From: Cytobacillus gottheilii
GTDB taxonomy: Bacteria > Bacillota > Bacilli > Bacillales > Cytobacillaceae
Reading direction: 5' to 3'
Assembly: GCF_900166665.1 (NCBI RefSeq)
Contig: NZ_LT800494.1
Location: 3,370,061-3,434,060 of the forward strand
Length of the DNA: 64,000 bases
The translations under genes were made by a program, and so were the position numbers. Shown here one piece after another: positions 2,991-16,660 of this stretch. Numbering within the stretch: the first letter of the stretch is position 1; each line of letters begins with the position of its first letter. A model generated the notes under the pieces. It did no database searches. It was not told the DNA's origin and saw only the letters and a program-made list of their open reading frames with translations.

Positions 2991-3197
2991 AAAGAATCCC
3001 TCCTGAATGTATCATATTGTTTCTATTCCCTCTATTTCAGAAAAAAAACACTTGTCACGAATAGGCATGACTAACTGTAAGTTTCCCTGAGAATACGCCG
3101 TTTAATCTGCTTAAACAGAAAAGTTATTTTCCTTGTATTTAATTGTTGGGATTTTAATTATAAGCAGTTACAATTGAGTATAAAAGGGGGAATATTC

Positions 3198-3407
3198 GTG
3201 CTTCAGCATTTTCAGTTTAAACCTTTATACAATGCTTCACAGCTTCCAGGATGGACCATTCATTTTTATTTTGAAAAACAAAAGTATGATGGTGTTTATC
3301 ATCAGGATGGCAAAATTGAATGGACACATTCCGAACCTCCTGCACAGGATCTCGATAAAATTAAATCGCAAATTCATGAATTAATGCTTTTTCATGTATA
3401 CGAATAG
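3198..3407 (+). CDS. yheE: YheE-like small protein (DUF5342 type)
   Basis: The product has 69 residues starting at GTG 3198, chosen because GGGGG lies 7 bases upstream; an in-frame TTG at 3174 has no ribosome site. It contains the family pattern HFQFKPLY...PGWTIHFYF...YDGVYHQDGKIEWT. YheE of B. subtilis lies beside yheC/yheD, so position supports the assignment. No function is known. The protein is acidic at the C-terminus and has no membrane segment. Confidence 0.75.
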   Translation: MLQHFQFKPLYNASQLPGWTIHFYFEKQKYDGVYHQDGKIEWTHSEPPAQDLDKIKSQIHELMLFHVYE

Positions 3408-3501
3408 GCTTTATCTTTTTTTCAAAGGCTATGTATAAGCACTTCTGAGCATATGTTAGTTGCTCAATGCTAATTTGCCTTTCTAAAAAGGAGTTTTTTT
3501 T

Positions 3502-3702
3502 ATGAGCAGACATAAAAAGAAGAATATGCCGCAAGACCTGCAATATGAAGGAAAAGACAAAGTTTATATGGACGTTGACCGTATGATCAATGAAGGTTTA
3601 TCGGGCGGATCCGTTCATAGAAAAGATGAGTTTGCCAATATTGAGGAAGCCGTTGATTTTCCGGAAGAAACACCGCCGCATAATTCTGAATTGAATCGAT
3701 AA
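3502..3702 (+). CDS. Conserved small acidic protein of unknown function
   Basis: The product has 66 residues with AAAAAGGAG about 9 bases before the ATG. It begins with a basic cluster (SRHKKKN) and continues with an acidic body (YEGKDKVYMDVDRMINEGLS, then FPEETPP). I recall similar small proteins in many Bacillaceae, often mislabelled as multidrug ABC components; no ATPase motif is present here. It is monocistronic, with its own terminator just after the stop. Confidence 0.65.
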   Translation: MSRHKKKNMPQDLQYEGKDKVYMDVDRMINEGLSGGSVHRKDEFANIEEAVDFPEETPPHNSELNR

Positions 3703-3707
3703 GCGAA

Positions 3708-3742
3708 AAAGGACATTTGAAAATCTTCAATGTCCTTTCTTT
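3708..3742 (+). terminator. Intrinsic terminator
   Basis: The 10-bp stem AAAGGACATT/AATGTCCTTT closes a loop that can add TGAA/TTCA pairs; TCTTTG follows. It lies 6 bases after the preceding stop. Confidence 0.8.
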
Positions 3743-3830
3743 GTATGCTAAAAATGTACACTAACCTTAAAACTATTTCATAACCAAGGTTATGCTATAA
3801 TTTTTTTAAAAGGAAAATCGAGGTTTTATC

Positions 3831-4721
3831 ATGCTCTTAAAAATACATCGTCATTATCCCCATTCGATTTTAAGCGACTCTGTCCAAAATAAAATTGAAT
3901 ATCATTGGTTTCAGGAAGACACTCAATGGTTAGGCATTCGGAAGGCTGATTTAACAGATGAAGAACTATATTTATTACAGACATTATTTCCAGCGCAAAT
4001 ATTAAATCAGAATCATTCACCTGCTGCCGAGTCATGGCGCCAATTTTTAGCAGAGGACGGGGCATATCCAGATCATTCGAAAGATGCAGACTATCGAATT
4101 ATTCACTTTTCTCTTACAAAAGGCGACTGGACTCCCTACGATTTTGAAACAGCCTTTAAAGGTTTTTTTCACCAAAGTATGATCATGTTTTGGAAGAATA
4201 AGTTCGAAGGCGCCATTATTGAAGAATATAATCATCACTCACCTCAATCAGATGAATTTGAAGGAATCTGCCATGCGATTGAGAGTGATTTCTTAACGGA
4301 TTTAACATTATACATTGGTACACCGCAACGAGTTACAAAAGATTTACCAAGAAACTTTCAACATGATCAGACCATATTTGAAACAGTAAAAAAAGAAAAC
4401 CAAGCTGAAAAGATCTTTACATTTGAGACTCTTCTTCCCGTCATCCTTATTAATGAAATGCCAGAATACATACAGAACAGTCTGCTGGCTAGATTTTCAT
4501 TTCTTTTGGATGACCAAGAACTTTTAACTACTATAATGTTCTTCTTGAATAATGGGTCCAATGCTTCCATGACTGCGAAAAAATTATTTATTCACCGCAA
4601 TACACTGCAGTATAGACTGGATAAGTTTAGTGAAAAAACAGGGATTAATCTAAAAGACTTTAAACAGGCATCTACCGTTTATCTTGCCTGTTTGTACTTA
4701 AAGCAAAGCAGCAAAGAATAA
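3831..4721 (+). CDS. PucR/CdaR-type transcriptional regulator
   Basis: The product has 296 residues. The last ~60 form the helix-turn-helix of the PucR/CdaR (sugar-diacid regulator) family: NNGSNASMTAKKLFIHRNTL, then QYRLDKFSEKTGINLKD. The N-terminal ~230 residues have no motif I recognise and would be the ligand-sensing part. It precedes msmX, co-directional with a 155-base gap that holds a cre-like site. This linkage occurs in other Bacillus genomes as I recall it, but the ligand is unknown. Confidence 0.75.
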   Translation: MLLKIHRHYPHSILSDSVQNKIEYHWFQEDTQWLGIRKADLTDEELYLLQTLFPAQILNQNHSPAAESWRQFLAEDGAYPDHSKDADYRIIHFSLTKGDWTPYDFETAFKGFFHQSMIMFWKNKFEGAIIEEYNHHSPQSDEFEGICHAIESDFLTDLTLYIGTPQRVTKDLPRNFQHDQTIFETVKKENQAEKIFTFETLLPVILINEMPEYIQNSLLARFSFLLDDQELLTTIMFFLNNGSNASMTAKKLFIHRNTLQYRLDKFSEKTGINLKDFKQASTVYLACLYLKQSSKE

Positions 4722-4780
4722 CTCTTCACTATTGGTTTTGCCAATTGTGTATAGCATTTAAAATCTTTTTCAGCACATTG

Positions 4781-4796
4781 CATAAAACGCTTTCAT
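4781..4796 (+). promoter_or_regulatory. cre-like catabolite site upstream of msmX
   Basis: CATAAAACGCTTTCAT reads on the other strand as ATGAAAGCGTTTTATG. It keeps the TGAAANCG core of the CcpA site with mismatches only in the right arm. It lies 80 bases before the msmX start. Confidence 0.5.
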
Positions 4797-4876
4797 TTTC
4801 TTTGTGCATGTTTCCCATATGGTTTTAGAAGCATGTGTTTTACAATAAACCTATCTAAAACGGGGAGCTGATACAT

Positions 4877-5974
4877 ATGGCAGAATTGAAATTAGACCAC
4901 ATCTATAAAATTTATGATAATAAGGTAACAGCTGTAGAAGATTTTAATTTGCATATTAAAGATAAGGAATTTATTGTCTTTGTTGGACCTTCTGGATGCG
5001 GAAAGTCAACAACACTTAGAATGATTGCCGGACTTGAAGAAATTTCTCAAGGTGATTTTTATATTGATGAGAAACGTGTAAATGATGTTGCCCCTAAGGA
5101 TCGTGACATCGCCATGGTATTCCAGAACTATGCACTATATCCACATATGAGTGTATATGATAATATGGCTTTTGGATTAAAGCTGCGGAAGTTTCCAAAG
5201 GAAGAAATTGATCGCCGTGTGCAGGATGCAGCAAAAATTCTTGGGCTTGAAGCCTATTTAGAACGAAAGCCAAAGGCTTTATCAGGCGGACAGCGTCAGC
5301 GTGTAGCATTAGGACGCGCGATTGTCCGAGATGCTAAGGTATTCTTAATGGATGAGCCGCTCTCCAACCTGGATGCTAAGCTTCGTGTACAAATGAGAGC
5401 TGAAATCGCCAAGCTTCATCAGCGACTGCAAACAACTACAATTTATGTTACGCATGACCAAACAGAAGCAATGACTATGGCGACTCGTCTCGTAGTTATG
5501 AAAGATGGCATCATCCAGCAAGTCGGAGCACCAAAAGAAGTATATGAAAAACCTGAAAATGTATTTGTCGGCGGCTTTATTGGCTCACCTGCTATGAACT
5601 TTTTCAATGGCAAGTTAAAGGAAGGCAAATTTCATATTGGCGATGTGGCCCTGGCTGTTCCAGAAGGAAAATTAAAGGCACTTCGTGAACAAGGTTATGA
5701 AGGGAAAGACATTATTTTTGGCATTCGCCCTGAGGATATTCATGATGAGCAGCTTATGATTGAATCATTTCCAGAGACGACCATTCAAGCCAAAATTGAT
5801 GTTTCCGAACTAACTGGAGCTGAAACGATGATTTACGCAAGCCTGGCAGGTCAGGATTATATTGCACGTGTTGATTCCCGTTCTGATATTAAACCAGGAC
5901 AGTCTCTGCAGCTTGCATTTGATATGAACAAAGGTCATTTCTTTGATGCTGGCACTGAACAGAGAATTCGCTAA
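4877..5974 (+). CDS. msmX: Multi-sugar ABC transporter ATPase (MsmX/UgpC family)
   Basis: The product has 365 residues, the normal length. Walker A is GPSGCGKST near residue 37, followed by Q-loop QNYALYPHMS, signature LSGGQRQRVALGRA, Walker B VFLMDEPLSNLD and switch histidine THDQTEAM. The C-terminal ~130 residues form the MalK/UgpC regulatory OB domain (FGIRPEDIHD). In B. subtilis MsmX energises several carbohydrate importers encoded elsewhere; here too no permease genes are adjacent. The ribosome site GGGGAGCTG precedes ATG. A single-gene transcript bounded by terminators is likely. Confidence 0.93.
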   Translation: MAELKLDHIYKIYDNKVTAVEDFNLHIKDKEFIVFVGPSGCGKSTTLRMIAGLEEISQGDFYIDEKRVNDVAPKDRDIAMVFQNYALYPHMSVYDNMAFGLKLRKFPKEEIDRRVQDAAKILGLEAYLERKPKALSGGQRQRVALGRAIVRDAKVFLMDEPLSNLDAKLRVQMRAEIAKLHQRLQTTTIYVTHDQTEAMTMATRLVVMKDGIIQQVGAPKEVYEKPENVFVGGFIGSPAMNFFNGKLKEGKFHIGDVALAVPEGKLKALREQGYEGKDIIFGIRPEDIHDEQLMIESFPETTIQAKIDVSELTGAETMIYASLAGQDYIARVDSRSDIKPGQSLQLAFDMNKGHFFDAGTEQRIR

Positions 5975-5989
5975 TTTAGGTTAATGTAA

Positions 5990-6025
5990 AATAAATCCCC
6001 GGGTTGATTCATCCGGGGATTTATT
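5990..6025. terminator. Bidirectional terminator between msmX and the TRAP/hxl operon
   Basis: A 13-bp stem, AATAAATCCCCGG with CCGGGGATTTATT, encloses a 10-base loop. A/T tracts on both sides let it end transcription of the convergent genes from either direction. Confidence 0.85.
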
Positions 6026-6048
6026 ATTTAAAGAGTTTTATATTTGCA

Positions 6049-6666
6049 TTATTGAAGAGTTGCTTTCATCGTGCGTGCAGCCGCCGCCGGGTTTTCCGCA
6101 CCTGTTAGAGAGCTGCCAGCGATGATGATATCTGGCTTGTGGTCAGCAATATCCCGTACATTATCCAGCTTAATTCCACCTGCTACTGCCACATCAAAAT
6201 CAAAGCCTGACACTAGAGAAAACAATTCTGTGTTAAACTTCCCTACGGTTTGCTGATCTTTACCTACATGCAAACTGACAAGCTTGACACCAAGTTCTTT
6301 AAGCTCCTCTATTCTTGCCCTCGAATGAACCTCTAATAAATCTACCATGACCTGTTTACCCATTTCGCGGGCAGCCTGCAATGTATCCTTTATGGTCAGA
6401 TCTGATGAAAACGCCATGACGGTTGTAATATCTGCACCTGCTTCAAAGGCTTGTCGAGCTTCATGCTTACCTGCATCACATGTCTTCATATCAGCAAGGA
6501 TCATTTTGTCTGGAAAAAGGGTGCGCAATTCTCGAATGATAGACATTCCGTACTCTTTAATGACACCTGTTCCAACCTCGATAATATCAATGCTCTCCTC
6601 TGTTTCTTTCGCAATGGTCATACACTTCTCTTTTGTTAATCGATCTAATGCCAGCTGTAATTTCAC
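6049..6666 (-). CDS. hxlA: Hexulose-phosphate synthase / 3-keto-acid-6-phosphate decarboxylase family enzyme
   Basis: The product has 205 residues, a single (beta/alpha)8 barrel of the OMP-decarboxylase suprafamily. Visible motifs are LQLALD (first Asp), DIIEVGT, LADMKTCDAGK (catalytic D-x-K-x-x-D), MVDLLEV, LHVGKDQQ and AVAGGIKLD/IAGSSLTGA (phosphate site). The Asp in VDL matches hexulose-6-phosphate synthase, whereas DAGK resembles 3-keto-L-gulonate-6-phosphate decarboxylase, so the reaction is ambiguous. The start is GTG, with AGGTG 6 bases upstream. It is the last gene of the leftward operon. The symbol is provisional: neither formaldehyde condensation nor decarboxylation is proven. Confidence 0.8.
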   Translation of the reverse strand: MKLQLALDRLTKEKCMTIAKETEESIDIIEVGTGVIKEYGMSIIRELRTLFPDKMILADMKTCDAGKHEARQAFEAGADITTVMAFSSDLTIKDTLQAAREMGKQVMVDLLEVHSRARIEELKELGVKLVSLHVGKDQQTVGKFNTELFSLVSGFDFDVAVAGGIKLDNVRDIADHKPDIIIAGSSLTGAENPAAAARTMKATLQ

Positions 6667-6687
6667 TATAACACCTCATTTCGCTTT

Positions 6688-6809
6688 CGTTCCACAACGG
6701 CCAATTCCTGATACAGTTGAGTGATCTATTATTATCTTTCAATCCGTTCCACAACGGCCAATTCCTGATACAGTTGAGTGATCTATTATTATCTTTCAAT
6801 CCGTTCCAC
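6688..6809. repeat. 57-bp tandem duplication at the kinase/hxlA junction
   Basis: Bases 6688-6744 and 6745-6801 are identical 57-mers, followed by 8 bases of a third copy (CGTTCCAC). The unit is 19 codons long. It carries the kinase stop codons, so the second copy forms extra spacer before the hxlA ribosome site. Confidence 0.97.
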
Positions 6810-7739
6810 TTCTCCCAGTCTAGCCTGAACATCATGCAAATAGGGCAAGCCTTCATTATCTCCCTTAACCGAAACAACCATGGAACCAATCGTATTCGCA
6901 AAATGAAGACTCTTTTCAAGAGACCACTGATGTAAAAATCCATAAATGAAACCTGCATTAAATCCATCCCCTGCTCCAACCGTGTCAACGACCTTTGCCG
7001 CTTTCACAGGCGCAGCATTCACAGTATTACCTTCCATATACCCAACAGAGCCTTTATCGCCTTGCTTTATTGCAATCACTGAAATTCCTAGTTCTCTCGC
7101 TTTTTCGATGATTATGGCTGGATCCTTTTCGCTGAGAATAATTTCCATTTCTTCATCACCAGCTAGTAAAATATCGACGTGCGGAAGAATTTCTAATAGT
7201 ACTTTGCGGGCCTCTTCCTTACTCCACATGCGAAGGCGAATATTAGGATCAAACGAAACCTTCACGCCATTTTTTTTGGCGTATTCAATCGCCTTCTTAA
7301 TCACTCCAATGTTTTTCTCGCCTATTGCAGGATAGATGCCTGTAATATGAAGAATTTTTGCCTGACTGATATACGTTTCATCTAAGTCCTGCCCTGTCAT
7401 TGTCAATGTCGGTGACTTATCTCGGTAGAAAAAGGTTCGTACATTGCCGTCTTCCATGATCTCTTTGAAATTAACGGAAGTCGGATAGCCGTCTACAAAT
7501 TCAACTTGTGAAACATCGATGCCTTCTCCGCGGGCATAATTTAGAATATACCTTCCAAATTCATCATTCCCCAGTCTGCTGATGAAGCCAGCTTTTAAGC
7601 CAAGACGGGCACAGCCAATCGCTGTGTTAAGCTCTGCACCGCCTATTCTTTTCTCAAAACTGTTTACAAATTTCATCGGACCTGTTGCTGTTGGGTTAAA
7701 TGCGATCATCGCTTCCCCAATCGTAATAATATCCATCAT
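6789..7739 (-). CDS. kdgK: PfkB-family sugar(-acid) kinase, 2-keto-3-deoxygluconate kinase-like
   Basis: The product has 316 residues. PfkB signature 1 is GGAELNTAIGCARLG near residue 34 and signature 2 is DTVGAGDGFNAGFIYG near residue 250, with the GAGD catalytic Asp. The N-terminus DIITIGEAMIAF is typical of KDG kinases and related 2-ketogluconate/fructose kinases. ATP phosphorylates the terminal hydroxyl of an imported sugar or sugar acid; which one cannot be told from sequence. ATGATG follows GGAGG by 7 bases. The C-terminal end is altered by a tandem duplication: reading on past the stops gives a coherent extension, so the natural C-terminus may once have been longer. Confidence 0.82.
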   Translation of the reverse strand: MMDIITIGEAMIAFNPTATGPMKFVNSFEKRIGGAELNTAIGCARLGLKAGFISRLGNDEFGRYILNYARGEGIDVSQVEFVDGYPTSVNFKEIMEDGNVRTFFYRDKSPTLTMTGQDLDETYISQAKILHITGIYPAIGEKNIGVIKKAIEYAKKNGVKVSFDPNIRLRMWSKEEARKVLLEILPHVDILLAGDEEMEIILSEKDPAIIIEKARELGISVIAIKQGDKGSVGYMEGNTVNAAPVKAAKVVDTVGAGDGFNAGFIYGFLHQWSLEKSLHFANTIGSMVVSVKGDNEGLPYLHDVQARLGEVERIER

Positions 7740-7787
7740 GTTGAAGCCTCCAAACTTTTGTCCCCTGATTCTTTCTCTTGGAGAATA

Positions 7788-8462
7788 CTACTCTTGCTTT
7801 TTTTGAAACAATTCGATTTCTCCCTTGTTGGCAACAATCACTTTGTCTGCCATATCTGCAAAAATCCCCGTGTCCACTACTCCAACCAATTTAACTAATG
7901 TTTCATGTAATCTAGCAGCATCATCGATGTGGCCAAAGGAACAATCAAGGATGTAGTTCCTATTATCACTAATAAAAACTTCCCCATCTTTTCTTCTTAA
8001 TACTGGGTCACCGCCTAGCTTTTTAATATATTCAGCGGTGACTTCAAAACCAAACGTCAAAACTTCAACCGGCAGTGGAAACCGTCCTAATGTGGAAACC
8101 ACTTTCGATGAATCCGCAATAATAATCAGCTCATCTGCACAAGCATCGACTACTTTTTCTCGAACGAGCGATCCGCCGCCTCCTTTGATGAGATTCAAGG
8201 AGGGATCAATTTCATCGGCTCCATCAATCGCCAAATCAATATGTGTGGTTACTGAAAAATCTACTAGCGGAATGCCTAATTCTTTTGCTAGCTTCTCCGT
8301 CTTTTTCGATGAAGGAATTCCTTGTATTTGGAGCCCTTCTTGAACCCGTCTCCCAAGCGCATGAAGCATGAAATCAACGGTTGATCCTGAGCCTAAACCA
8401 ACAGTCATGCCATTTTTCACATATTTCACAGCTTCCTCAGCAGCTATACGTTTATCGTCCAT
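7788..8462 (-). CDS. rpiA: Ribose-5-phosphate isomerase A
   Basis: The product has about 224 residues with GLGSGSTVDFM (phosphate loop), DGADEID and IKGGGGSLVREKVV, the last holding the catalytic Glu and Lys of RpiA. It interconverts ribulose-5-P and ribose-5-P. The start could be ATG 8462 or TTG 8471, because GAGGAG sits 3 bases before the TTG and 12 before the ATG. Having rpiA inside a sugar operon suggests that the pathway delivers a pentulose-5-phosphate, with ribulose-5-P the obvious candidate. Confidence 0.9.
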   Translation of the reverse strand: MDDKRIAAEEAVKYVKNGMTVGLGSGSTVDFMLHALGRRVQEGLQIQGIPSSKKTEKLAKELGIPLVDFSVTTHIDLAIDGADEIDPSLNLIKGGGGSLVREKVVDACADELIIIADSSKVVSTLGRFPLPVEVLTFGFEVTAEYIKKLGGDPVLRRKDGEVFISDNRNYILDCSFGHIDDAARLHETLVKLVGVVDTGIFADMADKVIVANKGEIELFQKKQE

Positions 8463-8490
8463 AGTAAACAATCACTCCTCAAACATTAAC

Positions 8491-9777
8491 TTAGAATAAT
8501 CCCGGATTAATCGCTTTCGGAATAAAGAATGCAATCTCTGGGAAAAACGCGATAAACAGCAGGACAATCACAACAATTGCAATATAAGGAATAACAGCTA
8601 CAAACGATCTTTCGATTGACATATCGCCAATTTTTGCTGCCAGTAATAGACAAAGCCCATATGGCGGTGTAATCAGCCCAATTGCTAAGGTGATTACAAC
8701 AATAAGTCCTAAATGAACTGGATCCATTCCAAATTCTAGAGCTGTTGGCAAAATGACTGGCACGAATAATATCATTGCCGGAATTGCATCCATAAAAGTT
8801 CCAATAAAAAGGAAGAATACAATAAGAATAATAATGAACAGCCATTCTGAGCCAACATTATTTGTAAAGAATTCTTGCGCTGCTGTTCCCAGCTGATAAT
8901 AACTCATCAATTCGCCAAGGGCGCTGGCACAAGCTAAAGCAAATAAAGACAACGAACTTAATGCAAGTGTATCCATTAAAATCTTCGGCAAATCTTTTAC
9001 TTTCAGCGTTTTATAATAAAACATACAAACAAGCAACGTATACAGTGATGCCACTGCAGCAGCCTCTGTGGCTGTAAAAAACCCGGTTACAATTCCCCCA
9101 ATAATGATAATCGGTGTAAGCAACGCAGGAATTGCCTCAAGGAATAGCTTTGCAAATTTTTTAAATTCAACCGCTTGAGAACGAGGATAATTTCTTTTTA
9201 CAGCGAGTATATAGACAAAAAGCATCATGCCTAAACCAATTAAAATTCCTGGTACAATCCCCCCAAGGAACAGTGCACCAATACTAGCGTTTGTTAAACC
9301 AGCAAAAATAATCATTGGAATACTTGGCGGTATTACAACGCCTACCGTAGAAGAGGCAGCTGTAACACCAACAGCAGTTTCTTTGTCATAGCCTTTTTTA
9401 AGCATGCTGGGAATAAGGATTTTCCCTACTCCAGCTGTATCTGCCTGTGAGGCTCCAGATACACCAGCAAACATCATGGACACAAGAATATTGGCATGTG
9501 CCAAACCGCCGCGGATCGGTCCTACAATCGCGAGTGCCAGATTAATAAGTTTCTCTGAAATCTTACCTGAGTTCATTAAATTAGCTGCCAATATAAATAA
9601 TGGTACCGCTAACAAAACAAAGGAATCGAGTCCATTGACCATCTTCATTGGAACAGTGGCTTCAGGAGTGTAAGGGATACCTGTGATGCCCAGAAGAGCA
9701 ACAATCCCTATAACAAAAGCAATTGGCACACCAATTAACATCAAGATAATAAATAAGCCAAGAAGTAAAAATCCCAT
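8491..9777 (-). CDS. TRAP transporter large permease (DctM-like)
   Basis: The product has 428 residues, almost entirely hydrophobic, with about 12 membrane segments typical of the ion-transporter-like M subunit. Characteristic stretches are GSGQ-type loop SGASQADTAGVGKILIPSM and VGVVIPPSIPMIIFAGLTNASIG. It couples substrate uptake to the sodium or proton gradient. Its ATG overlaps the stop of the Q subunit (TAATG), so the two are translationally coupled. It is more similar in layout to the C4-dicarboxylate/sugar-acid TRAP group than to fused DctQM forms. Confidence 0.92.
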   Translation of the reverse strand: MGFLLLGLFIILMLIGVPIAFVIGIVALLGITGIPYTPEATVPMKMVNGLDSFVLLAVPLFILAANLMNSGKISEKLINLALAIVGPIRGGLAHANILVSMMFAGVSGASQADTAGVGKILIPSMLKKGYDKETAVGVTAASSTVGVVIPPSIPMIIFAGLTNASIGALFLGGIVPGILIGLGMMLFVYILAVKRNYPRSQAVEFKKFAKLFLEAIPALLTPIIIIGGIVTGFFTATEAAAVASLYTLLVCMFYYKTLKVKDLPKILMDTLALSSLSLFALACASALGELMSYYQLGTAAQEFFTNNVGSEWLFIIILIVFFLFIGTFMDAIPAMILFVPVILPTALEFGMDPVHLGLIVVITLAIGLITPPYGLCLLLAAKIGDMSIERSFVAVIPYIAIVVIVLLFIAFFPEIAFFIPKAINPGLF

Positions 9778-10262
9778 TACGCTCTAACCTCCTTCTCTTT
9801 AAGAGATTGGATGTGACTCAGCAGATGTGAAAGAGAATAAATCAGCATGGTTCCTGCCATAACTGGGATGGCAAGCCAAATATAGCCCATTTGCATTTCA
9901 GGAAATGTTGCCCATGTGTAATTCCAAAATTCCCTTACGACAATGATTCCCAAAAAGAAAATACAAACGTTAAAAGCAATTAAAACAAGATCATTAAAGA
10001 TATTAAGAAAGACTCTATTTTTTCCTTTTAATTTTCTTTGGAAAAAGTCAAAATTAAAGTGTTCACGACGGTTGACCATAACGGCTGCACCCATAAACAT
10101 CGCCCAAATAAAGGAATAATTAGCGACTTCTTCTGTCCATAAAATCGATATGCCTAAATGCCTTGTAATGATTTGCAATAAGATAACCGCAAAAAACACC
10201 GTTAAAAAGACAATTCCGAGTGTCATTTGGATTTTTTCAAGTGTCTGAACAAAACGTTTCAT
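9777..10262 (-). CDS. TRAP transporter small permease (DctQ-like)
   Basis: The product has 161 residues with four predicted membrane segments and the family pattern WTEEVANYSFIWAMFMGAAVMVxRxxHF (here split around residues 42-72). It is the Q subunit that partners the M subunit and the extracytoplasmic receptor. GGGGGGAT-type ribosome site precedes ATG. It lies between the receptor and M-subunit genes, the standard dctPQM order. Confidence 0.9.
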   Translation of the reverse strand: MKRFVQTLEKIQMTLGIVFLTVFFAVILLQIITRHLGISILWTEEVANYSFIWAMFMGAAVMVNRREHFNFDFFQRKLKGKNRVFLNIFNDLVLIAFNVCIFFLGIIVVREFWNYTWATFPEMQMGYIWLAIPVMAGTMLIYSLSHLLSHIQSLKEKEVRA

Positions 10263-10280
10263 CCCGATCCCCCCTCTAGA

Positions 10281-11303
10281 TTATTCCAGGTCAACAATTT
10301 TCTGCAGCAGCTCTTCTACTTCAATTTCCTTTGCAAAATCTTCTAGAATAGGTCGTGCAATATCAATAAAAGGCTGTGTATCTATTTCGTTAACCGTCGC
10401 ACCTTCATCAATAGCCTTTTCCTTATACTCAACATCTTGAGCATTTGTTGCATCACGCTCTGCTTTCACAGATTCTTCCGCTGCTTTTAAAATAATTTCT
10501 TGATGTTCTTTTGAATATTGATCAAATTTTTCCCCATTAATTAATAGAAATCTAGTTGTATAGTCATGACCTGTTTCTGTAATATATTTTCCGTTTGGCG
10601 TCGTATGATGGGATTGCTGCACAAAAAACGGGTAAGCGTTTTCAGATGAGTCAACAACATCCTGCTGCAATCCTTGATATAGTTCTCCCCAAGAGATTCC
10701 TGATGGAATTGCTCCAGTTGCTTCCCAGAAGTCAGAAACGACACCAGACGTTTGTGTTCTTAATGAAACACCCTGCAGGTCCTCTACAGCGTTAAGCGGT
10801 TTCTTGCCATAGTAATGACGGACACCAGCAGACCAATAGCCTAACAGTTTAAAAGAATTATTGGACTTTTCATTGATAATATCTCCCATCTCTTTTCCAA
10901 TCTCACCATCCACTACATTTAGCCAATGATCATAACTGGTAAACAGATATGGAGCAGAGAATAAATCAACTTCTCTAATTCCGGTTTGAGTCATAAATCC
11001 TGGAGAAACAAGAACCACATCCGCCGCACCTAACTGAAGCTTTTCAACCAGCTGTGATTCTTCTGTACCGATCGTCCCAGCATGCACTTCTACTTCTATA
11101 CTTCCGTTTGATTCACGTTCGGCCACTTCTTTGAACTTTAGCATGCCAACCTGATAAGGATTATCTGGAGAGGTTTGATTATGTGCTGCAATAATTTTTA
11201 TTTTGCCGTCCCCATCGCCATCAACTTCATTGCTGCTGCATGCAGCCAAAATACCAATGGTCATACTAATAAGTAATAGAAAAGTAAATTTGTGTTTCAG
11301 CAT
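10281..11303 (-). CDS. TRAP substrate-binding lipoprotein (DctP-like)
   Basis: The product has 340 residues. A signal peptide ends in lipobox ILAAC (Cys ~22), so the mature receptor is anchored outside the membrane. DctP-family landmarks are NPYQVGMLKFKEV, GAADVVLVSPGF, and LQGVSLRTQTSGVVSDFW. The Arg in SLRT corresponds to the conserved residue that salt-bridges the ligand carboxylate in this family, so a carboxylated ligand such as a sugar acid is favoured. A ligand of this kind would fit the kinase and decarboxylase/aldolase enzymes of the operon. Confidence 0.9.
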   Translation of the reverse strand: MLKHKFTFLLLISMTIGILAACSSNEVDGDGDGKIKIIAAHNQTSPDNPYQVGMLKFKEVAERESNGSIEVEVHAGTIGTEESQLVEKLQLGAADVVLVSPGFMTQTGIREVDLFSAPYLFTSYDHWLNVVDGEIGKEMGDIINEKSNNSFKLLGYWSAGVRHYYGKKPLNAVEDLQGVSLRTQTSGVVSDFWEATGAIPSGISWGELYQGLQQDVVDSSENAYPFFVQQSHHTTPNGKYITETGHDYTTRFLLINGEKFDQYSKEHQEIILKAAEESVKAERDATNAQDVEYKEKAIDEGATVNEIDTQPFIDIARPILEDFAKEIEVEELLQKIVDLE

Positions 11304-11339
11304 GTTTCTTTCCCCCTTGTCGTCATTGTCCGTCCAAAA

Positions 11340-11897
11340 CTACTCTAAATTTGCATGTTTCTGATTTAGACTATTATGGCTTTTTCCTTCAGGCTGCTGC
11401 TCAAGCAGATAAACCACAATCGCATCTAAAAGCAGATGTGCTGCCTGATCGAATTGACTACCAAGCGGCTGAATCGTCTCTGGCTCTGTGGCAAGGCGCT
11501 TTTTTGTTGCAGCCGGGATCACTACCGTACACTCGCTAAGTTCTCCAATTACAGAATCTTTGTTCGTCGTTACTAACGCTACTTTTGCATCAATTTCTTT
11601 TGCTTTTTTGGCATATTGCAATAATGTGCCCGTGCTGCCTGAACCGGAAATTGACAGCAGCACATCTCCCGTTTCAATACTTGGCGTAATGGTTTCACCG
11701 ACTACGTAAACAGGATATTCGCTATGCATGAGCCTCATGGCGAATACTTTGCCGACCAGACCGGAGCGACCTGTCCCTGCAATAAAAATTCTCTTTGCGT
11801 TTTGCAGAATATCTGCCAATTGCTTTGCTTCCTTTTCGTCAATCTTTGCTAATACGCCAGCAATTTCTCCAGCGATTGTATCAATGATTCTTTTCAT
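11340..11897 (-). CDS. hxlB: SIS-domain 6-phospho-3-hexuloisomerase family protein
   Basis: The product has 185 residues, starting at ATG 11897 because AGAGGTG lies just upstream. The SIS fold shows GTGRSGLVGKVFAMRLMH, then ISGSGSTGT (phosphosugar-binding Ser/Thr) and IQPLGSQFDQAAHLLLDAI. The C-terminal HANLE is typical of PHI (HxlB). PHI swaps the keto group between C2 and C3 of a hexulose-6-phosphate. The enzyme family normally works with hexulose-phosphate synthase, and the hxlA-like gene is at the other end of the same operon. There is no hxlR-type regulator nearby. Confidence 0.87.
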   Translation of the reverse strand: MKRIIDTIAGEIAGVLAKIDEKEAKQLADILQNAKRIFIAGTGRSGLVGKVFAMRLMHSEYPVYVVGETITPSIETGDVLLSISGSGSTGTLLQYAKKAKEIDAKVALVTTNKDSVIGELSECTVVIPAATKKRLATEPETIQPLGSQFDQAAHLLLDAIVVYLLEQQPEGKSHNSLNQKHANLE

Positions 11898-11915
11898 ATT
11901 CTTCACCTCTAGAAT

Positions 11916-12920
11916 TTATAGTGATTCTCTTTGTATTAACGTTGGTTCAAAACGATAGATTTCTGCTTGATTTGCTTCTTCTTTTTGCTGAATCCTTTGA
12001 AATAATAGCTCTGCTGCCTTCTCTCCCATTTCAAAAGCTGGCTGAGCAACAGTCGTAAGAGCCGGATTATAGATATCTGCAAAGGAAACATCATCTATTC
12101 CAATCAGGCCGATGTCTTCAGGTATACTGAGCTTATTTTTCTTCACATACGACAGAAGTTCCATTAAACTGCGGTCATTTGTCGCCAAAATTGCTTTTGG
12201 CGGATCACTGAGCTGGAATAAATGATGTATAAGACTCTGCATGTCTGTCGTCTTCCCGCTCACAATAAATTCTTCCCGAATAAAAAGCTCATGGTGCTCT
12301 AGCGCTTTCTTATAACCGCTCAATCGCTCCACCCTCGGTGTAACGTCTGGCTCAATTGGCGGAGATAATACCGCAATTTTTGAATAACCGTGCTTTACGA
12401 ATGAATCTACTGCCAGGAAAGAGGCTTTCTCGTTATCAAGCAATACAGTATCCGTCTGCAGTCCAATAATCAGGCGATCAATAAATACTACAGGGTAGTT
12501 CTCAGAGATTAACTCCTGATATTGCTCAACATTCTTTCCTGTTGGAAATAAGATAAGGCCATCAACTTGCTTAGCTCTTAACATATCAATATACTTCTTT
12601 TCCTTTTCCGGCTGATCATCTGCATTGCATATGATGACGTGAAAATCCTTTTCATTACAAACATCCTCGATTGCCCGAATAACCTGTGTTGAAAAAATAT
12701 GCAAGATGTTTGCAACGATTACACCAATGGTTGTAGTTGATTTTTGCTTCAAGCTTCTTGCTAAAATATTGGGTCTATATCCGAGTACTTTAATTGTTTC
12801 TTCAATCCGATTTTTTGTATCTTCTCCCATATAATCAAAACGCTGATTTAAATATTGAGATACGGTGCTTTTAGAAACACCTGCATGCTGTGCAACATCA
12901 GCAATAGTTACTTTTTTCAT
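11916..12920 (-). CDS. LacI-family transcriptional regulator of the TRAP/hxl operon
   Basis: The product has 334 residues. The N-terminal HTH is TIADVAQHAGVSKSTVSQYL with the hinge helix NILARSLKQ, followed by a periplasmic-binding-type sensor domain (TTTIGVIVANIL ... IGLIGIDDVSFADI). It most resembles the KdgR branch. It is the first gene of the leftward operon and thus probably autoregulated through the palindromes between it and the divergent isomerase. The inducer is likely an intermediate or the imported substrate. Confidence 0.9.
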   Translation of the reverse strand: MKKVTIADVAQHAGVSKSTVSQYLNQRFDYMGEDTKNRIEETIKVLGYRPNILARSLKQKSTTTIGVIVANILHIFSTQVIRAIEDVCNEKDFHVIICNADDQPEKEKKYIDMLRAKQVDGLILFPTGKNVEQYQELISENYPVVFIDRLIIGLQTDTVLLDNEKASFLAVDSFVKHGYSKIAVLSPPIEPDVTPRVERLSGYKKALEHHELFIREEFIVSGKTTDMQSLIHHLFQLSDPPKAILATNDRSLMELLSYVKKNKLSIPEDIGLIGIDDVSFADIYNPALTTVAQPAFEMGEKAAELLFQRIQQKEEANQAEIYRFEPTLIQRESL

Positions 12921-12942
12921 TTGATATTCTCCTAGCGAAAGA

Positions 12943-13101
12943 TAAATCGATTTACTAAATCGGTTTAGTGAAAGTATAAAATAAATGTAAGCGTTTTACA
13001 ACCCGTAATTTTAAAAAAGTATTTTTATTTTCTAAACCGTCTCACAATTATGGATAAGCGCTTTCATTCATGTTATGATGTATCAGCTAAATCGATTTAG
13101 T
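12943..13101. promoter_or_regulatory. LacI-type operators and cre-like sites in the divergent control region
   Basis: Three related palindromes are visible: TAAATCGATTTA (12943-12954), ACTAAATCGGTTTAGT (12954-12969) and CTAAATCGATTTAG (13087-13100, perfect). All have the central CG of LacI-family operators. Two cre-like sequences lie between them: ATGTAAGCGTTTTACA (12985-13000) and GATAAGCGCTTTCA (13053-13066, 12 of 14 to consensus). The rightward operator lies just after a TATGAT -10-like element (13074-13079). Confidence 0.7.
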
Positions 13102-13127
13102 TCATAAACGGCCAGGGAGGTTCTATT

Positions 13128-13847
13128 GTGACAAAAGTTATTCTGCCTACACTCATTTTTAATAATCACCATTCAATAGAAGAACAAGTGGATATGATAA
13201 AGGAATTTGGTGCTGATGGGATTGAAATTCGCCGCGAGCGGCTGAAGGATGTCTTACAGGAATTGAGTTTGTTTAAGCAGGAGATTAAATTAGCTGATTT
13301 TGATGCTGTGGTTTATTCTGTACCGGTAGAACTATGGCAGGATCCAATCTCCTTAAATCCCGATGCTGTAAATGCATTAAAACAAGCAGAATTTCTAAAT
13401 GCAACACATATAAAGTTCTCGCTGGGAAAGTTTGATGCAAAACAAGCAGATGTGAAAGGGTTTAAAGAGTGGTTGGCGTCAAATTTGCCAAGTTCAATCA
13501 CAATGTTAGTGGAAAATGATCAAACTCCATATGGAGGAACGCTGGATCCAATTTTATCTTTTTTTCAATGGCAAACAGAAACGTCTGTCCGAATGACTTT
13601 TGACGTCGGCAACTGGACTGTCCAAAATGCAGACTGGAGTGCTGCTCATCAGGAGTTGAGCACTTGGATCGAATATCTTCATTTAAAGACAGCAGCAAAA
13701 ACGAATGAAGGCTGGGTTAATAAACCGGTGGATCTTGAACATTTAAAACTCCCATTTCCATCGTATACAGCGATCGAATTTCCATTAGATAACCCACAGG
13801 TTGAGGCACCTCAGTGGATTGAAATAATTAGGAAAGAAGATAACTAA
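13128..13847 (+). CDS. Sugar phosphate isomerase/epimerase-like TIM-barrel protein
   Basis: The product has 239 residues, shorter than typical xylose-isomerase-like TIM barrels (~280). Motifs are DGIEIRRERL (first metal Glu region), LVENDQTPYGG (Glu), FDVGNW (Asp) and LHLKTA (His), consistent with one divalent metal site. It is transcribed divergently from the LacI operon and shares its operators, so it probably belongs to the same pathway. Superfamily relatives include L-xylulose-5-P 3-epimerase and hydroxypyruvate isomerase; the substrate here is unknown. Confidence 0.75.
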   Translation: MTKVILPTLIFNNHHSIEEQVDMIKEFGADGIEIRRERLKDVLQELSLFKQEIKLADFDAVVYSVPVELWQDPISLNPDAVNALKQAEFLNATHIKFSLGKFDAKQADVKGFKEWLASNLPSSITMLVENDQTPYGGTLDPILSFFQWQTETSVRMTFDVGNWTVQNADWSAAHQELSTWIEYLHLKTAAKTNEGWVNKPVDLEHLKLPFPSYTAIEFPLDNPQVEAPQWIEIIRKEDN

Positions 13848-13894
13848 ATACATTACATAGGATTTAATCTTCTGGCAAATAAGGGTGGTTGTAA

Positions 13895-14077
13895 TTTGGA
13901 ATACGACCCCGGAAACCAAATGGCGGAGTGCTAAATGCTTATTCACGACACTATGATCCAGATAACGGTAAATCATGGTGTGATAAATGCTTAAACGGAA
14001 ACACTAACTCAAAATCCATACAAAGTTTTAATAAGGGGCATGGGAAATTCTTATGCCTTATTCCCCTTTTTCTTTAG
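13895..14077 (+). pseudogene. Possible gene remnant with a CxxC motif
   Basis: An open frame without a start codon reads RPRKPNGGVLNAYSRHYDP, then SWCDKC and on to a TAG at 14075. A ribosome-site-like AAGGGTGG and TTG lie just upstream but in another frame. The composition looks protein-like, which suggests a decayed or frameshifted small gene; it could also be chance. The last third overlaps the hairpin at 14030-14071. Confidence 0.3.
14030..14071 (+). terminator. Probable terminator
   Basis: AATAAGG(GG)CAT pairs with ATGCCTTATT around an 11-base loop, then CCCCTTTTTCTTT follows. The GG bulge weakens it. It would end transcripts coming from the isomerase gene. Confidence 0.5.
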
Positions 14078-14122
14078 AGCAAATCAATGTACAACCCACC
14101 TATCCCCCTCTAAGCTCTCTAT

Positions 14123-14374
14123 TTACTCCTCCAAAAGCTTCACGCTTTCCATTCCGCAATGAGAACATGTTAACAAATGTGGACACAATTGATCTCTATA
14201 ATCATTTTGATAGCCATCCTCCATCTTCATAAGGTCTGTCGGCATGTATGCACTATAGTCATCATAATAATCCATAATCTTGCCATGATCATTCATCTCT
14301 CTGCCGCATTCTCCACATAACTCATGAAGTTCTCTAAAACCATTGCATATTGAACAGACTCCCATTATTCCCAT
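14123..14374 (-). CDS. Small zinc-ribbon-like protein
   Basis: The product has 83 residues (80 if the second Met at 14365 is used; AAAGGATGG lies upstream of both). It has three CxxC pairs: CSIC, CGEC and CSHC, plus CPH, with an acidic middle segment (DYYDDY). The arrangement suggests one or two structural zinc sites. It is a hypothetical protein that I recall beside SASP genes in Bacillus. Function unknown; a role in sporulation is only suggested by position. Confidence 0.65.
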   Translation of the reverse strand: MGIMGVCSICNGFRELHELCGECGREMNDHGKIMDYYDDYSAYMPTDLMKMEDGYQNDYRDQLCPHLLTCSHCGMESVKLLEE

Positions 14375-14454
14375 CCTTTCAGCGTTTGAAGTTACTTATA
14401 GGATATGTAAAACACACTTTTTATTAGATGGAAAATATTACTGCTTTTATATCC

Positions 14455-14484
14455 CGCATAAACTTCTCAAAATCAAACATAATA
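14455..14484 (+). promoter_or_regulatory. Sigma-G type promoter of the SASP gene
   Basis: CGCATA (14455-14460), a 17-base spacer and CATAATA (14478-14484) match the forespore sigma-G consensus (TGHATR, CATWMTA) with one mismatch. This predicts a start near 14491 and a leader of about 140 bases. Confidence 0.7.
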
Positions 14485-14532
14485 GTTAGTACAAACAGCG
14501 GGTCACACACACACCGCAGCAACTCATACCGA

Positions 14533-14595
14533 TGGGTTAACCCACTAGATGGAGCAAGAAATCTTGCGCTGGTGCAAGTCCAGCTAACCCAACCA
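14533..14595 (+). ncRNA. tRNA-like cloverleaf in the SASP leader
   Basis: TGGGTTA (14533-14539) pairs perfectly with TAACCCA (14585-14591), which is followed by A-CCA. The stem encloses three hairpins: CCA/TGG (14542-14552), GCAAGA/TCTTGC (14554-14567) and GCTGG/CCAGC with the 7-base loop TGCAAGT (14568-14584), a near-canonical T-arm. It is 59 bases plus ACCA, so too short for a tRNA and without a normal anticodon loop. TGGGTTAACCCA can also fold on itself. No known riboswitch class is recognised. Confidence 0.5.
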
Positions 14596-14629
14596 TCAAA
14601 CAAAAAATTCATGAGGAGATGAATCAAAA

Positions 14630-14848
14630 ATGACAAACCAAACATCAAGCAGAAGCAATTCCTCAAACCAACTTTTAGTACCAGGAGTATCTCAAGCACT
14701 TGACCAAATGAAGTACGAAATCGCTTCAGAATTCGGTGTAAACTTAGGTGCTGAAACAACTTCACGCGCTAACGGATCTGTCGGCGGTGAAATCACTAAA
14801 CGCCTTGTGCAAATGGCTGAACAACAACTTGGCGGCGGTTCATTCTAA
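14630..14848 (+). CDS. ssp: Alpha/beta-type small acid-soluble spore protein
   Basis: The product has 72 residues, the family norm. It contains the germination-protease site region [10 protein letters not shown] and the C-terminal DNA-binding signature [15 protein letters not shown]. Such proteins coat DNA in the spore core, force an A-like form and protect against UV, then are degraded by GPR at germination. GAGGAG lies 11 bases before ATG. The strong codon bias (GGCGGC, CTTGCT-type) fits high expression. A sigma-G promoter and long structured leader lie upstream. Confidence 0.96.
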
Positions 14849-14885
14849 TATCCTTTACATTTTGTAAAAATTTAATATTATGGCT

Positions 14886-14912
14886 TGGCCCCCTTGTAAA
14901 GGGGGCCATTTC
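14886..14912 (+). terminator. Terminator of the SASP gene
   Basis: TGGCCCCCTT/AAGGGGGCCA is a perfect 10-bp stem with a GTA loop followed by TTT. It is 38 bases after the stop. Confidence 0.9.
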
Positions 14913-14917
14913 CAATT

Positions 14918-16297
14918 TCAAACCATTTTTTGCGGGTCCACCCACTGGTTAAATTCAGCTGTATTCACATAACCCGTTTTCAGCGCTGCTTCCCGTAACG
15001 TAGTTCCTTCATTAAATGCAAGCTTCGCAATTTCTGCCGCTTTTTCATATCCAATATGAGGATTCAATGCCGTTACAAGCATAAGTGAATTCTGGACATG
15101 TTCTTGAATCATTTCAACATTTGCTTCCAGACCGACCATGCAATTTTTGTTAAAAGAGGTCATTCCGTCCGCTAAAAGAGTGACGGATTGCATAAAGTTA
15201 TAAATGATCACCGGCTTAAAAACATTTAATTCGAAATTTCCTTGGCTTGCAGCAAATCCAATGGTCGCATCATTCCCAAAGATTTGACTGGCAATCATTG
15301 TAAGTGCCTCACTCTGAGTTGGATTTACTTTCCCTGGCATTATGGAGCTGCCAGGTTCATTAGCAGGAATCGATAATTCACCAATTCCGCTGCGCGGTCC
15401 ACTTGACAGCCATCTGACATCATTGGCAATTTTCATTAGATCCGCTGCCAGTGCTTTTAGCGCACCGTGGGCCAGCACTGATTCGCTATGGCTCGTTAAC
15501 GCCTGGAATTTATTATCGGAGGATTTGAATGGGTAACCTGTGAAACTGGAAATTTCTTTGGCTGTTTCTTCTCCAAATTGTTTATGTGCATTAATCCCCG
15601 TTCCTACAGCAGTCCCGCCAATCGCAAGGTCTTGTAAGTATTTTAAAGCATCTGAAATCATGTGCTGATTTTTCTCCAGGCTGCAGCGCCATCCGCTGAT
15701 CTCTTGTCCTAATGTGAGTGGTGTCGCATCCTGTAAATGTGTTCGTCCAATCTTTACAATCGATTGATATGCTTCTTCTTTTAATTTAATGGTTTGTTTA
15801 AGATCATGCAGAGCAGGCAGAAGATTTTCTGAAAGTCCTTTGTATGCAGCAATATGCATAGCCGTAGGAAAAGTATCATTCGAGCTTTGTGACATATTGA
15901 CATCATCATTCGGATGAATGCGCTCCTCCCTGCTCTCAGCTTCTAAAAATTCATTTCCACGCTTCGCGATCACTTCATTCATATTCATATTCGTTTGTGT
16001 TCCGCTTCCTGTTTGCCATACCGATAAAGGAAAATGCGTATCCCATTTCCCTTCCAGAATTTCATCACAAGCTTTTACAATAGCCGAACTCTTTGCTTTT
16101 GACAATCCGCTCAATCTTTCATTCACGATTGCAGCTGATCTCTTTAAAACGGCAAAAGCATAAATTAATTCCAATGGCATTTTTTCAATGCCGATATTAA
16201 AATTCTCTTTGCTCCTCTGCGTTTGGGCACCCCAATATTTATCCGCGGGAACATTGACTTCTCCAAGTGTATCTCTTTCAATTCTGTATTCACTCAT
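14918..16297 (-). CDS. fumC: Class II fumarate hydratase
   Basis: The product has 459 residues, full length. It converts fumarate to L-malate in the TCA cycle. Signatures are [15 protein letters not shown], the fumarase/aspartase loop [17 protein letters not shown] near residue 317, and [17 protein letters not shown] (catalytic His region). In B. subtilis the orthologue is called citG. It is convergent with the SASP gene and stands alone. The ribosome site AGGGAGG lies upstream of ATG. Confidence 0.97.
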
Positions 16298-16436
16298 GTT
16301 TCCTTAGTCCCTCCTTAAATTTCTACTACCCTAATATATTCATTTCCCCCATATTTAAACGTTCATAAACATATTTGGCAGTTAAAATGTAAAAAGGTTT
16401 TTAATTAGTCATGAGGCAGGAAACACTCCCCCTAAC

Positions 16437-16474
16437 CACAAAAAAACTGCCGTACGGAAACCCGCAGGCAGTTA
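16437..16474 (-). terminator. Terminator of the 27-residue peptide gene
   Basis: On the minus strand AACTGCC-TGCGG pairs with CCGTA-(C)-GGCAGTT and runs into seven T. It overlaps the stop codon of the small gene. Confidence 0.85.
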
Positions 16475-16555
16475 CGCTTTCGCAATAGCATAACCAATAA
16501 AGTACCCAAGTACCATGATACTTGCTATTGCTAATGTAATTGAAAAGTCCTCCAT
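16472..16555 (-). CDS. 27-residue hydrophobic membrane peptide
   Basis: ATG at 16555 follows AAAGGGGG by 8 bases. The product is 27 residues: an acidic start (MEDF), a single hydrophobic helix (ITLAIASIMVLGYFIGYAIA) and KA at the end. The good ribosome site and a dedicated terminator overlapping the stop argue that it is real. One membrane span with GxxxG-like glycines suggests a membrane micro-protein. Function and partners are unknown. Confidence 0.65.
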   Translation of the reverse strand: MEDFSITLAIASIMVLGYFIGYAIAKA

Positions 16556-16660
16556 CTATGTTATCCCCCTTTAAAAGGAATCTTCCTTTTTAACATACCA
16601 TGCAAAAGAAAGGGGTTTTCATACATGTCAGTACGATTCTGTGTCCTTTATTTGAACAAT

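Follow-up and report, generated by a model that had tools for sequence, protein, structure and literature searches.

A candidate kgu-type sugar-acid operon with HxlA and HxlB homologues and a predicted redox-free route from 2-ketogluconate to ribulose-5-phosphate

The 64-kb window analysed here (the whole stretch of 64,000 nucleotides, part of a 4.78-Mb genome) contains a candidate sugar-acid operon that combines homologues of the enzymes HxlA and HxlB with a tripartite ATP-independent periplasmic (TRAP) transporter, a PfkB kinase and ribose-5-phosphate isomerase (RpiA). Its HxlA is 91% identical to that of the nearest named relative at this locus, Cytobacillus gottheilii. An initial annotation of the DNA had described eight leftward genes and a divergent TIM-barrel gene, and an open reading frame (ORF) check of the window found all nine ORFs open and intact in the places assigned to them, eight on the minus strand in the leftward order lacI-hxlB-dctP-dctQ-dctM-rpiA-pfkB-hxlA and one diverging on the plus strand. 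The gene labels of that annotation agree with Pfam and NCBIfam profiles for eight of the nine genes; the TIM-barrel gene matches no model of either collection at an E-value of 0.001, its relationships being apparent from the PDB entry 1yx1. The features of the locus are as follows.

6049..6666, minus strand: hxlA-like barrel of the HUMPS family, 205 amino acids, with Lys136 at the position of Arg139 in 3-keto-L-gulonate-6-phosphate decarboxylase (KGPDC); predicted 3-keto-6-phosphogluconate decarboxylase (TIGR03128, the 3-hexulose-6-phosphate synthase or HPS model, 259 bits against a cut-off of 200)
6789..7739, minus strand: PfkB kinase of the 2-keto-3-deoxygluconate (KDG)/2-ketogluconate kinase type, 316 amino acids (profiles; 38% identical to Klebsiella KguK)
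7788..8471, minus strand: rpiA, ribose-5-phosphate isomerase A (NF001924, 274.7 bits, above cut-off)
8491..9777, minus strand: dctM, TRAP large permease (TIGR00786, above cut-off)
9777..10262, minus strand: dctQ, TRAP small permease (PF04290)
10281..11303, minus strand: dctP, TRAP receptor of the hexuronate/hexonate type with R162, R182 and N222 (PF03480; nearest PDB entry 4x8r)
11340..11906, minus strand: hxlB-like SIS isomerase, 188 amino acids, with Asp153 and His157; predicted 2-keto/3-keto-6-phosphogluconate isomerase (TIGR03127, the 6-phospho-3-hexuloisomerase or PHI model, 229 bits against a cut-off of 160)
11916..12920, minus strand: LacI-family repressor, PtxS-like (profiles; 32% identical over 333 residues to Klebsiella PtxS)
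12943-12954 and 12956-12967, no strand: two adjoining LacI-type operators 5' of lacI (repeat analysis of the intergenic sequence, conservation)
12983..12999, no strand: cre-like palindrome TGTAAGCGTTTTACA, a possible catabolite-repression site (intergenic repeat)
13051..13068, no strand: second cre-like site, AAGCGCTTTC (same intergenic repeat as the site at 12983..12999)
13087..13101, no strand: LacI-type operator ahead of the TIM-barrel gene (intergenic repeat)
13128..13847, plus strand: KguE-like xylose-isomerase-type TIM barrel, 239 amino acids (match to 1yx1, PA2260, in sequence and structure)

The operon is real, with common, conserved operators for the eight leftward genes and the divergent TIM-barrel gene, as the initial annotation had proposed. 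A palindrome of the form TAAATCGATTTA/TAAATCGGTTTA occurs three times between lacI and the TIM-barrel gene (12943-12954, 12956-12967 and 13088-13099), and this intergenic region holds the only two exact sites of the 14-base form CTAAAYCGRTTTAG in the genome. Among 90 distinct related loci, 85 have a site of the pattern AAAnCGnTTT upstream of lacI; in 200 base shuffles the number averaged 1.1 and never exceeded 5. A whole-genome search found no exact 14-base operator outside this locus and four one-mismatch sites, two of which were inspected. One such copy lies between facing kduI-like and IclR-type regulator genes (locus L212; genes named by eye); this intergenic site and an intragenic site in an ABC permease gene were considered as marks of extra regulon members and judged likely to be chance occurrences or sites of other regulators. 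The sites at 12983..12999 and 13051..13068 resemble the cre pattern, and an Rfam scan of positions 3000-17000 gave no match at gathering scores. Positions 6688-6809, which take in the end of pfkB and the spacer between it and hxlA, consist of a perfect 57-base tandem duplication (2.1 copies), which is likely to be recent because the copies are 100% identical.

The HxlA-like barrel had been described as mixing features of HPS and KGPDC, a description that survives with a different residue at its centre. The DAGK stretch put forward as a decarboxylase mark was dropped, the formaldehyde-fixing HPS of M. gastri showing DAG too, and the true mixed feature is Lys136, which by alignment falls on KGPDC position 139. 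In an alignment with UlaD and SgbH of E. coli, the Glu112, Arg139 and Thr169 of KGPDC are replaced in the window protein by Asp, Lys and Ala. Position 139 is listed in Table 1 of PMC5980557 as a structure-aligned active-site column occupied by r139 in KGPDC and by l137 or y137 in HPS. The HPS references compared here likewise carry a non-basic residue (Leu, Tyr or Thr) at this position.

The distribution of this residue was followed in 40 + 40 regions around HxlA matches in the family of the window and in 80 named loci, the latter being the best 80 of 160 relatives chosen by two peptide patterns, neither of which covers residue 139; neighbours were counted by BLAST to reference proteins within at most 10.5 kb, as far as the fetched stretch reached. 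A search of 193 genomes of that family gave 122 with an HxlA match at an E-value of 1e-20 or better; among the matches listed, 31 are 50-100% identical, one is a fragment at 60%, and the rest, at 45% or less, mix canonical enzymes with a third group. The 162 barrel ORFs collapse by their last 190 residues to 150 distinct barrels, with Lys at position 139 in 118, Tyr in 31 and one truncated protein (L062) in which the residue could not be read. The truncation reflects a stop that shortens hxlA in one genome (G043, L062 9926-10255), the cluster being otherwise full. A kinase gene lies near 118 of the distinct barrels (116 Lys, 1 Tyr, 1 truncated), and the 32 without one comprise 30 Tyr and 2 Lys barrels; hxlR is found near 25 of the 31 Tyr barrels as against 1 of the 118 Lys barrels, and is not near that of the window. 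The crossing cases of kinase and hxlR context come from a single locus (L169), in which 6 kb separate an hxlR-type cluster from a kgu-type one.

The isomerase shows a parallel division. Asp153 and His157 are present in 119 of 120 HxlB proteins linked to Lys-type barrels (one is gapped), whereas Glu and Leu occupy these positions in all 32 linked to Tyr-type barrels, B. subtilis YckF included. The Asp153 of the window protein stands in place of the Glu at YckF 152, which we take to be catalytic in PHI. Thus HxlA and HxlB have each gained a basic residue that is absent from the canonical enzyme, as would be expected if C1 of the substrate were a carboxylate rather than a CH2OH group. In a tree of 66 rows, references included, the Lys-type HxlA proteins form one clade with support 100/96 even when the Lys column is blanked. 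Hence the Lys type is a single subfamily rather than the product of repeated convergence, and the sequence counts above are not counts of events; independent origins of Lys139 in several lineages were considered and not found.

The divergent gene and two of the leftward genes link the locus to the kgu operons. In a search extended to an E-value of 1, the only PDB match to the TIM-barrel protein by sequence is 1yx1, Pseudomonas aeruginosa PA2260 (E-value 1e-19), which from the genome numbering is presumably KguE. An AlphaFold2 model (mean pLDDT 95) superimposes on 1yx1 with a Z-score of 29.1 and a root-mean-square deviation of 2.1 over 233 residues, the next match being UlaE with a Z-score of 20.5. 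The protein is 30-31% identical to Klebsiella KguE proteins, and 30% over 252 residues to the product of a gene annotated Epimerase KguE. The gene is therefore a KguE relative. The annotated genes of Klebsiella aerogenes encode, in order, PtxS (split into two pieces), KguE, 2-ketogluconate kinase, a transporter labelled tartrate transporter and 2-ketogluconate 6-phosphate reductase; the kgu reference proteins were taken from the K. pneumoniae copy, which has plainer labels and is 88-98% identical to it gene by gene. The window LacI resembles Klebsiella PtxS in sequence and in its operator core, and the kinase is close to KguK as well as to KDG kinases, the latter being nearest in PDB and NCBIfam. 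No KguD is encoded among the operon genes or within 10.5 kb of them; KguD-family genes occur elsewhere in the genome. PMC5902321 describes PtxS as a LacI-family repressor responding to 2-ketogluconate with the operator TGAAACCGGTTTCA. A search of the window for this operator with up to three mismatches gave 7 matches where 3.6 were expected, a number reached in 8 of 100 shuffles and so not above chance; the operator of the window is related to that of PtxS but different in sequence. PMC11678583 shows by knockout that KguE has a part in the use of 2-ketogluconate by P. plecoglossicida, and the KguK of C. necator is described in PMC6651773 as preferring 2-ketogluconate and as also taking KDG and 2-keto-D-gulonate. 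KguE-like barrels were also seen beside transporters on plasmids of Ligilactobacillus and Levilactobacillus (L197, L199), where the stretch shown has no annotated HxlAB or sugar kinase, so that barrels of this family may also serve other purposes.

For the transporter, the carboxylate-binding Arg noted in the initial annotation is R182, kept together with R162 and N222 in all 20 aligned receptors. The spacing of these three residues is that of Arg150, Arg170 and Asn210, which the glucuronate receptor STM3169 uses according to PMC7660916 (the comparison being one of spacing, with STM3169 outside the alignment). The nearest PDB entry by sequence, 4x8r (E-value 4e-42), holds glucuronate, with the caution stated in PMC11668362 that most such ligands were co-purified. 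The structural model of DctP has a mean pLDDT of 89, and the 50 structure-search matches listed are all TRAP receptors, ligands not being separated by them.

From the gene content, homology, conserved context, subfamily residues and conserved operator sequences we infer a substrate, a reaction series and a mode of repression with its effector, and we put the probability of this reading at roughly 0.65. The window would contain a kgu-type sugar-acid operon in which DctPQM imports 2-keto-D-gluconate, the PfkB kinase adds a phosphate at C6, the HxlB homologue shifts the keto function from C2 to C3 to yield 3-keto-6-phosphogluconate, the HxlA homologue decarboxylates the latter to D-ribulose-5-phosphate and CO2, and RpiA passes the product into the pentose phosphate pool. 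Through the shared operators, the LacI protein would keep both its own operon and the divergent kguE-like gene repressed as long as neither the substrate nor a derivative of it is present. Such a route would cost one ATP and no redox cofactor, standing in for KguD and 6-phosphogluconate dehydrogenase. 2-Keto-6-phospho-D-gluconate is fructose-6-phosphate oxidised at C1, so both enzymes could retain their ancestral stereochemistry and the product would be ribulose-5-phosphate. 3-Keto-6-phosphogluconate is the bound intermediate of 6-phosphogluconate dehydrogenase, and by analogy cleavage of its C1-C2 bond through the enediolate chemistry of HPS and KGPDC would give CO2 and ribulose-5-phosphate. 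The same order of import, C6 phosphorylation, isomerisation by the SIS enzyme, decarboxylation and RpiA had been suggested before for a 2-keto-hexonate. It gains support as a prediction from the KguE relative, the PtxS-like regulator and the KguK/KdgK-type kinase, and also fits the hexuronate-type receptor, the added basic residues and the occurrence of the enzyme pair in kgu-type operons without KguD; the substrate can probably be narrowed to 2-keto-D-gluconate.

The gene set recurs among the relatives: the 80 named loci contain hxlB in 78, pfkB in 78, dctM in 78, lacI in 77, an Eda-type aldolase in 56, rpiA in 48, the KguE-like barrel in 7 and hxlR in none, with hxlB missing in L077 and L100 where a contig end cuts that side. 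Besides the window type, arrangements sharing the HxlA subfamily of the window (K1) include lacI-pfkB-hxlA-hxlB-Eda-dctPQM-cupin with adjoining rpiA, and lacI-pfkB-hxlB-Ldh2-dctPQM-ZnADH-Eda-UxuA-UxuB-hxlA; in a few, ABC transporter genes take the place of TRAP. RpiA is encoded in 53 of 99 K1 clusters, which points to ribulose-5-phosphate. The key link comes from the third group, K2, represented by 19 distinct loci in the family of the window: the kinase, LacI and hxlB occur in all 19, the KguE-like barrel and a KguT-like major facilitator superfamily (MFS) transporter in 17 each, Eda in 14 and KguD in none within at most 10.5 kb, and at one locus (L069) the kinase and the MFS protein are 59% and 66% identical to the K. 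aerogenes kgu kinase and transporter. These look like kgu operons without the reductase in which HxlA and HxlB would stand in. Three Lactobacillales plasmids, from Loigolactobacillus, Tetragenococcus and Lacticaseibacillus (L193 4401-12633, L196 and L198), carry the order barrel-membrane protein-kinase-HUMPS-HxlB-Eda together with a LacI gene, with Lys139 in every HUMPS barrel and Asp/His in HxlB; on these plasmids, as in K2, the pair accompanies kgu-type genes without KguD. Their records label HxlB as 6-phospho-3-hexuloisomerase and the barrel only as an orotidine 5'-monophosphate (OMP) decarboxylase/HUMPS family protein; the membrane proteins bear the labels hypothetical protein, SLC13 family permease and gluconate:proton symporter, and one of them matches the Pfam family CitMHS weakly, the other two having no Pfam match. 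The Loigolactobacillus cassette is flanked by two copies of ISLpl1, which suggests mobility.

The routes of 2-ketogluconate use described in PMC11837542 run through 2-ketogluconate reductase, or through KguK followed by the NADPH-dependent KguD. In the present data it seems on the whole probable that there is a widespread and plasmid-borne third route, a redox-neutral mirror of the ribulose monophosphate (RuMP) pathway, with a new isomerase of the HxlB subfamily and a new decarboxylase of the HxlA subfamily and with no KguD, Edd or 6-phosphogluconate dehydrogenase; in lactobacilli ribulose-5-phosphate would presumably enter the phosphoketolase pathway. No Edd above cut-off was found in any of 14 chosen genomes, 2 of 14 control genomes having one, and among the open-licence papers listed, judged by titles and abstract openings, none proposed such an HxlAB route. 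If true, this reading would add a redox-free branch to ketogluconate use and a cofactor-free path from oxidised glucose to pentose phosphates, and would replace the formaldehyde label of two enzyme subfamilies by a function. Claims that some bacilli and lactobacilli metabolise formaldehyde would need correction where they rest on annotation (profile annotation would label the pair formaldehyde-fixing), and the role of KguE could be tested in a simple genetic background. Such a pair would also represent a natural case of the HPS/KGPDC switch, one lysine dividing two uses; Gerlt and colleagues reportedly studied this switch in designed mutants.

The locus was compared with the closest known systems. 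With the kgu operon of Pseudomonas and Klebsiella (ptxS-kguE-kguK-kguT-kguD) the window shares the KguE-like barrel, the PtxS-like LacI, the KguK/KdgK-like kinase and the AAAnCGnTTT core, but it has TRAP genes for KguT, and HxlB, HxlA and RpiA with no KguD. The RuMP pair (hxlR-hxlAB) belongs to the same protein families and catalyses adjacent reactions at C1-C3 of hexulose 6-phosphate, whereas the window has Lys136 and Asp153/His157, LacI rather than HxlR, a kinase and an acid transporter, and a predicted release of CO2 in place of formaldehyde capture. KGPDC (UlaD/SgbH) has in common with the window enzyme the HUMPS barrel, a basic residue 139, a TRAP-fed sugar acid (sgb locus) and the decarboxylation of a 3-keto-hexonate 6-phosphate predicted here; the window differs in Lys for Arg139, Asp for Glu112 and Ala for Thr169, in an SIS isomerase that would make the 3-keto acid, and in the predicted product, ribulose- and not L-xylulose-phosphate. 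KDG operons of the kdgRKAT type also have a LacI regulator and a KdgK-type kinase, but the window lacks Eda and has HxlAB and RpiA.

Several observations weigh against the predicted 2-ketogluconate route. A KguD-family dehydrogenase is encoded in all 14 genomes tested (best match 42-52% identical per genome, 45% in that of the window), and 15 K1-type loci (9 genomes, some fetched twice) have a KguD homologue of 27-50% identity within 10.5 kb, on the strand opposite to hxlA in 14 of the 15. The KguE-like barrel is rare in K1 (8 of 99), an Eda-type aldolase is found in 74 of 99 K1 and 14 of 19 K2 clusters, and UxuA, UxuB and an Ldh2-type dehydrogenase accompany some relatives, so that these clusters may act on several sugar acids. 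The window kinase matches 23 NCBIfam models but reaches the curated cut-off of none (the best being KDG kinase with 242 of 400 bits and IolC with 235 of 300), and at 38% identity is no closer to KguK than to KDG kinases by profile, so that by sequence it could equally be a KDG kinase. Two Lys-type clusters (L083, L140) have no kinase gene, although one may be encoded elsewhere. The Lys-type contexts belong to one lineage and are hence not independent events, NCBIfam names the pair HPS and PHI, and we know of no assay for any enzyme of the Lys-type subfamily.

The Ldh2 and Uxu genes, together with the ZnADH of some relatives, bear on a first alternative, namely that the same chemistry acts on another 2-keto-hexonate, such as 2-keto-D-gulonate or a compound made in the cell from an imported hexonate or hexuronate by an Ldh2-type dehydrogenase, 2-ketogluconate then not being the main substrate. 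The glucuronate held by 4x8r, such ligands having often co-purified (PMC11668362), and the acceptance of 2-keto-D-gulonate and KDG by C. necator KguK (PMC6651773) are compatible with it. Yet Ldh2 and Uxu genes are lacking from the operon of the window, ribulose-5-phosphate for RpiA would not arise from other C4/C5 configurations, and the KguE- and PtxS-like partners indicate 2-ketogluconate; we consider this alternative unlikely.

A KDG operon in which HxlA and HxlB perform a side job is quite improbable. It would account for a kinase nearest to KDG kinases and for the Eda gene adjoining in many relatives, but the window operon contains no Eda/KdgA aldolase and a separate kdgK-kdgA pair exists in the same genome, where the only Eda match, at C4:4638941, lies beside another kinase; on these grounds a KDG-only operon was rejected for the window. 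Moreover, the phosphate of KDG has no 3-OH, so that HxlB could not form a 3-keto acid from it. Three loci (L107, L143 and L147) have two PfkB kinases each, one by hxlA-hxlB-Ldh2 and one by Eda, as if branch-specific, which again does not favour a KDG operon.

Ordinary RuMP formaldehyde fixation, or its reverse, by a genuine HPS and PHI is the least probable alternative and very doubtful, for although both proteins pass the NCBIfam cut-offs, Lys136 occurs in none of 31 Tyr-type barrels and Asp153/His157 in none of the 32 linked HxlB proteins, an acid transporter and a sugar-acid kinase lie in the operon, and hxlR is absent from it, which the initial annotation had held against RuMP detoxification, a function rejected here on context and active-site residues. 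A canonical hxlR//hxlA-hxlB locus, with HxlR confirmed by profile, lies near zwf and gnd in the same genome (L031 3336-8022, C4 at about 223-228 kb) and is likely to be its formaldehyde locus.

HxlAB pairs of other types were encountered on three further plasmids. A Gluconobacter plasmid pair was considered as a 2-ketogluconate route and ruled out, having Leu139 and adjoining an S-(hydroxymethyl)glutathione dehydrogenase gene. On a Weissella plasmid (L200 5483-8514) hxlAB with Tyr139 is joined to a glucose-6-phosphate isomerase gene. A Salmonella plasmid (L202 1901-5636) combines a glucose-type phosphotransferase system, a protein of the glucose-6-phosphate isomerase family, HxlB and an HxlA with Thr139, which is of neither the Lys nor the Tyr type.

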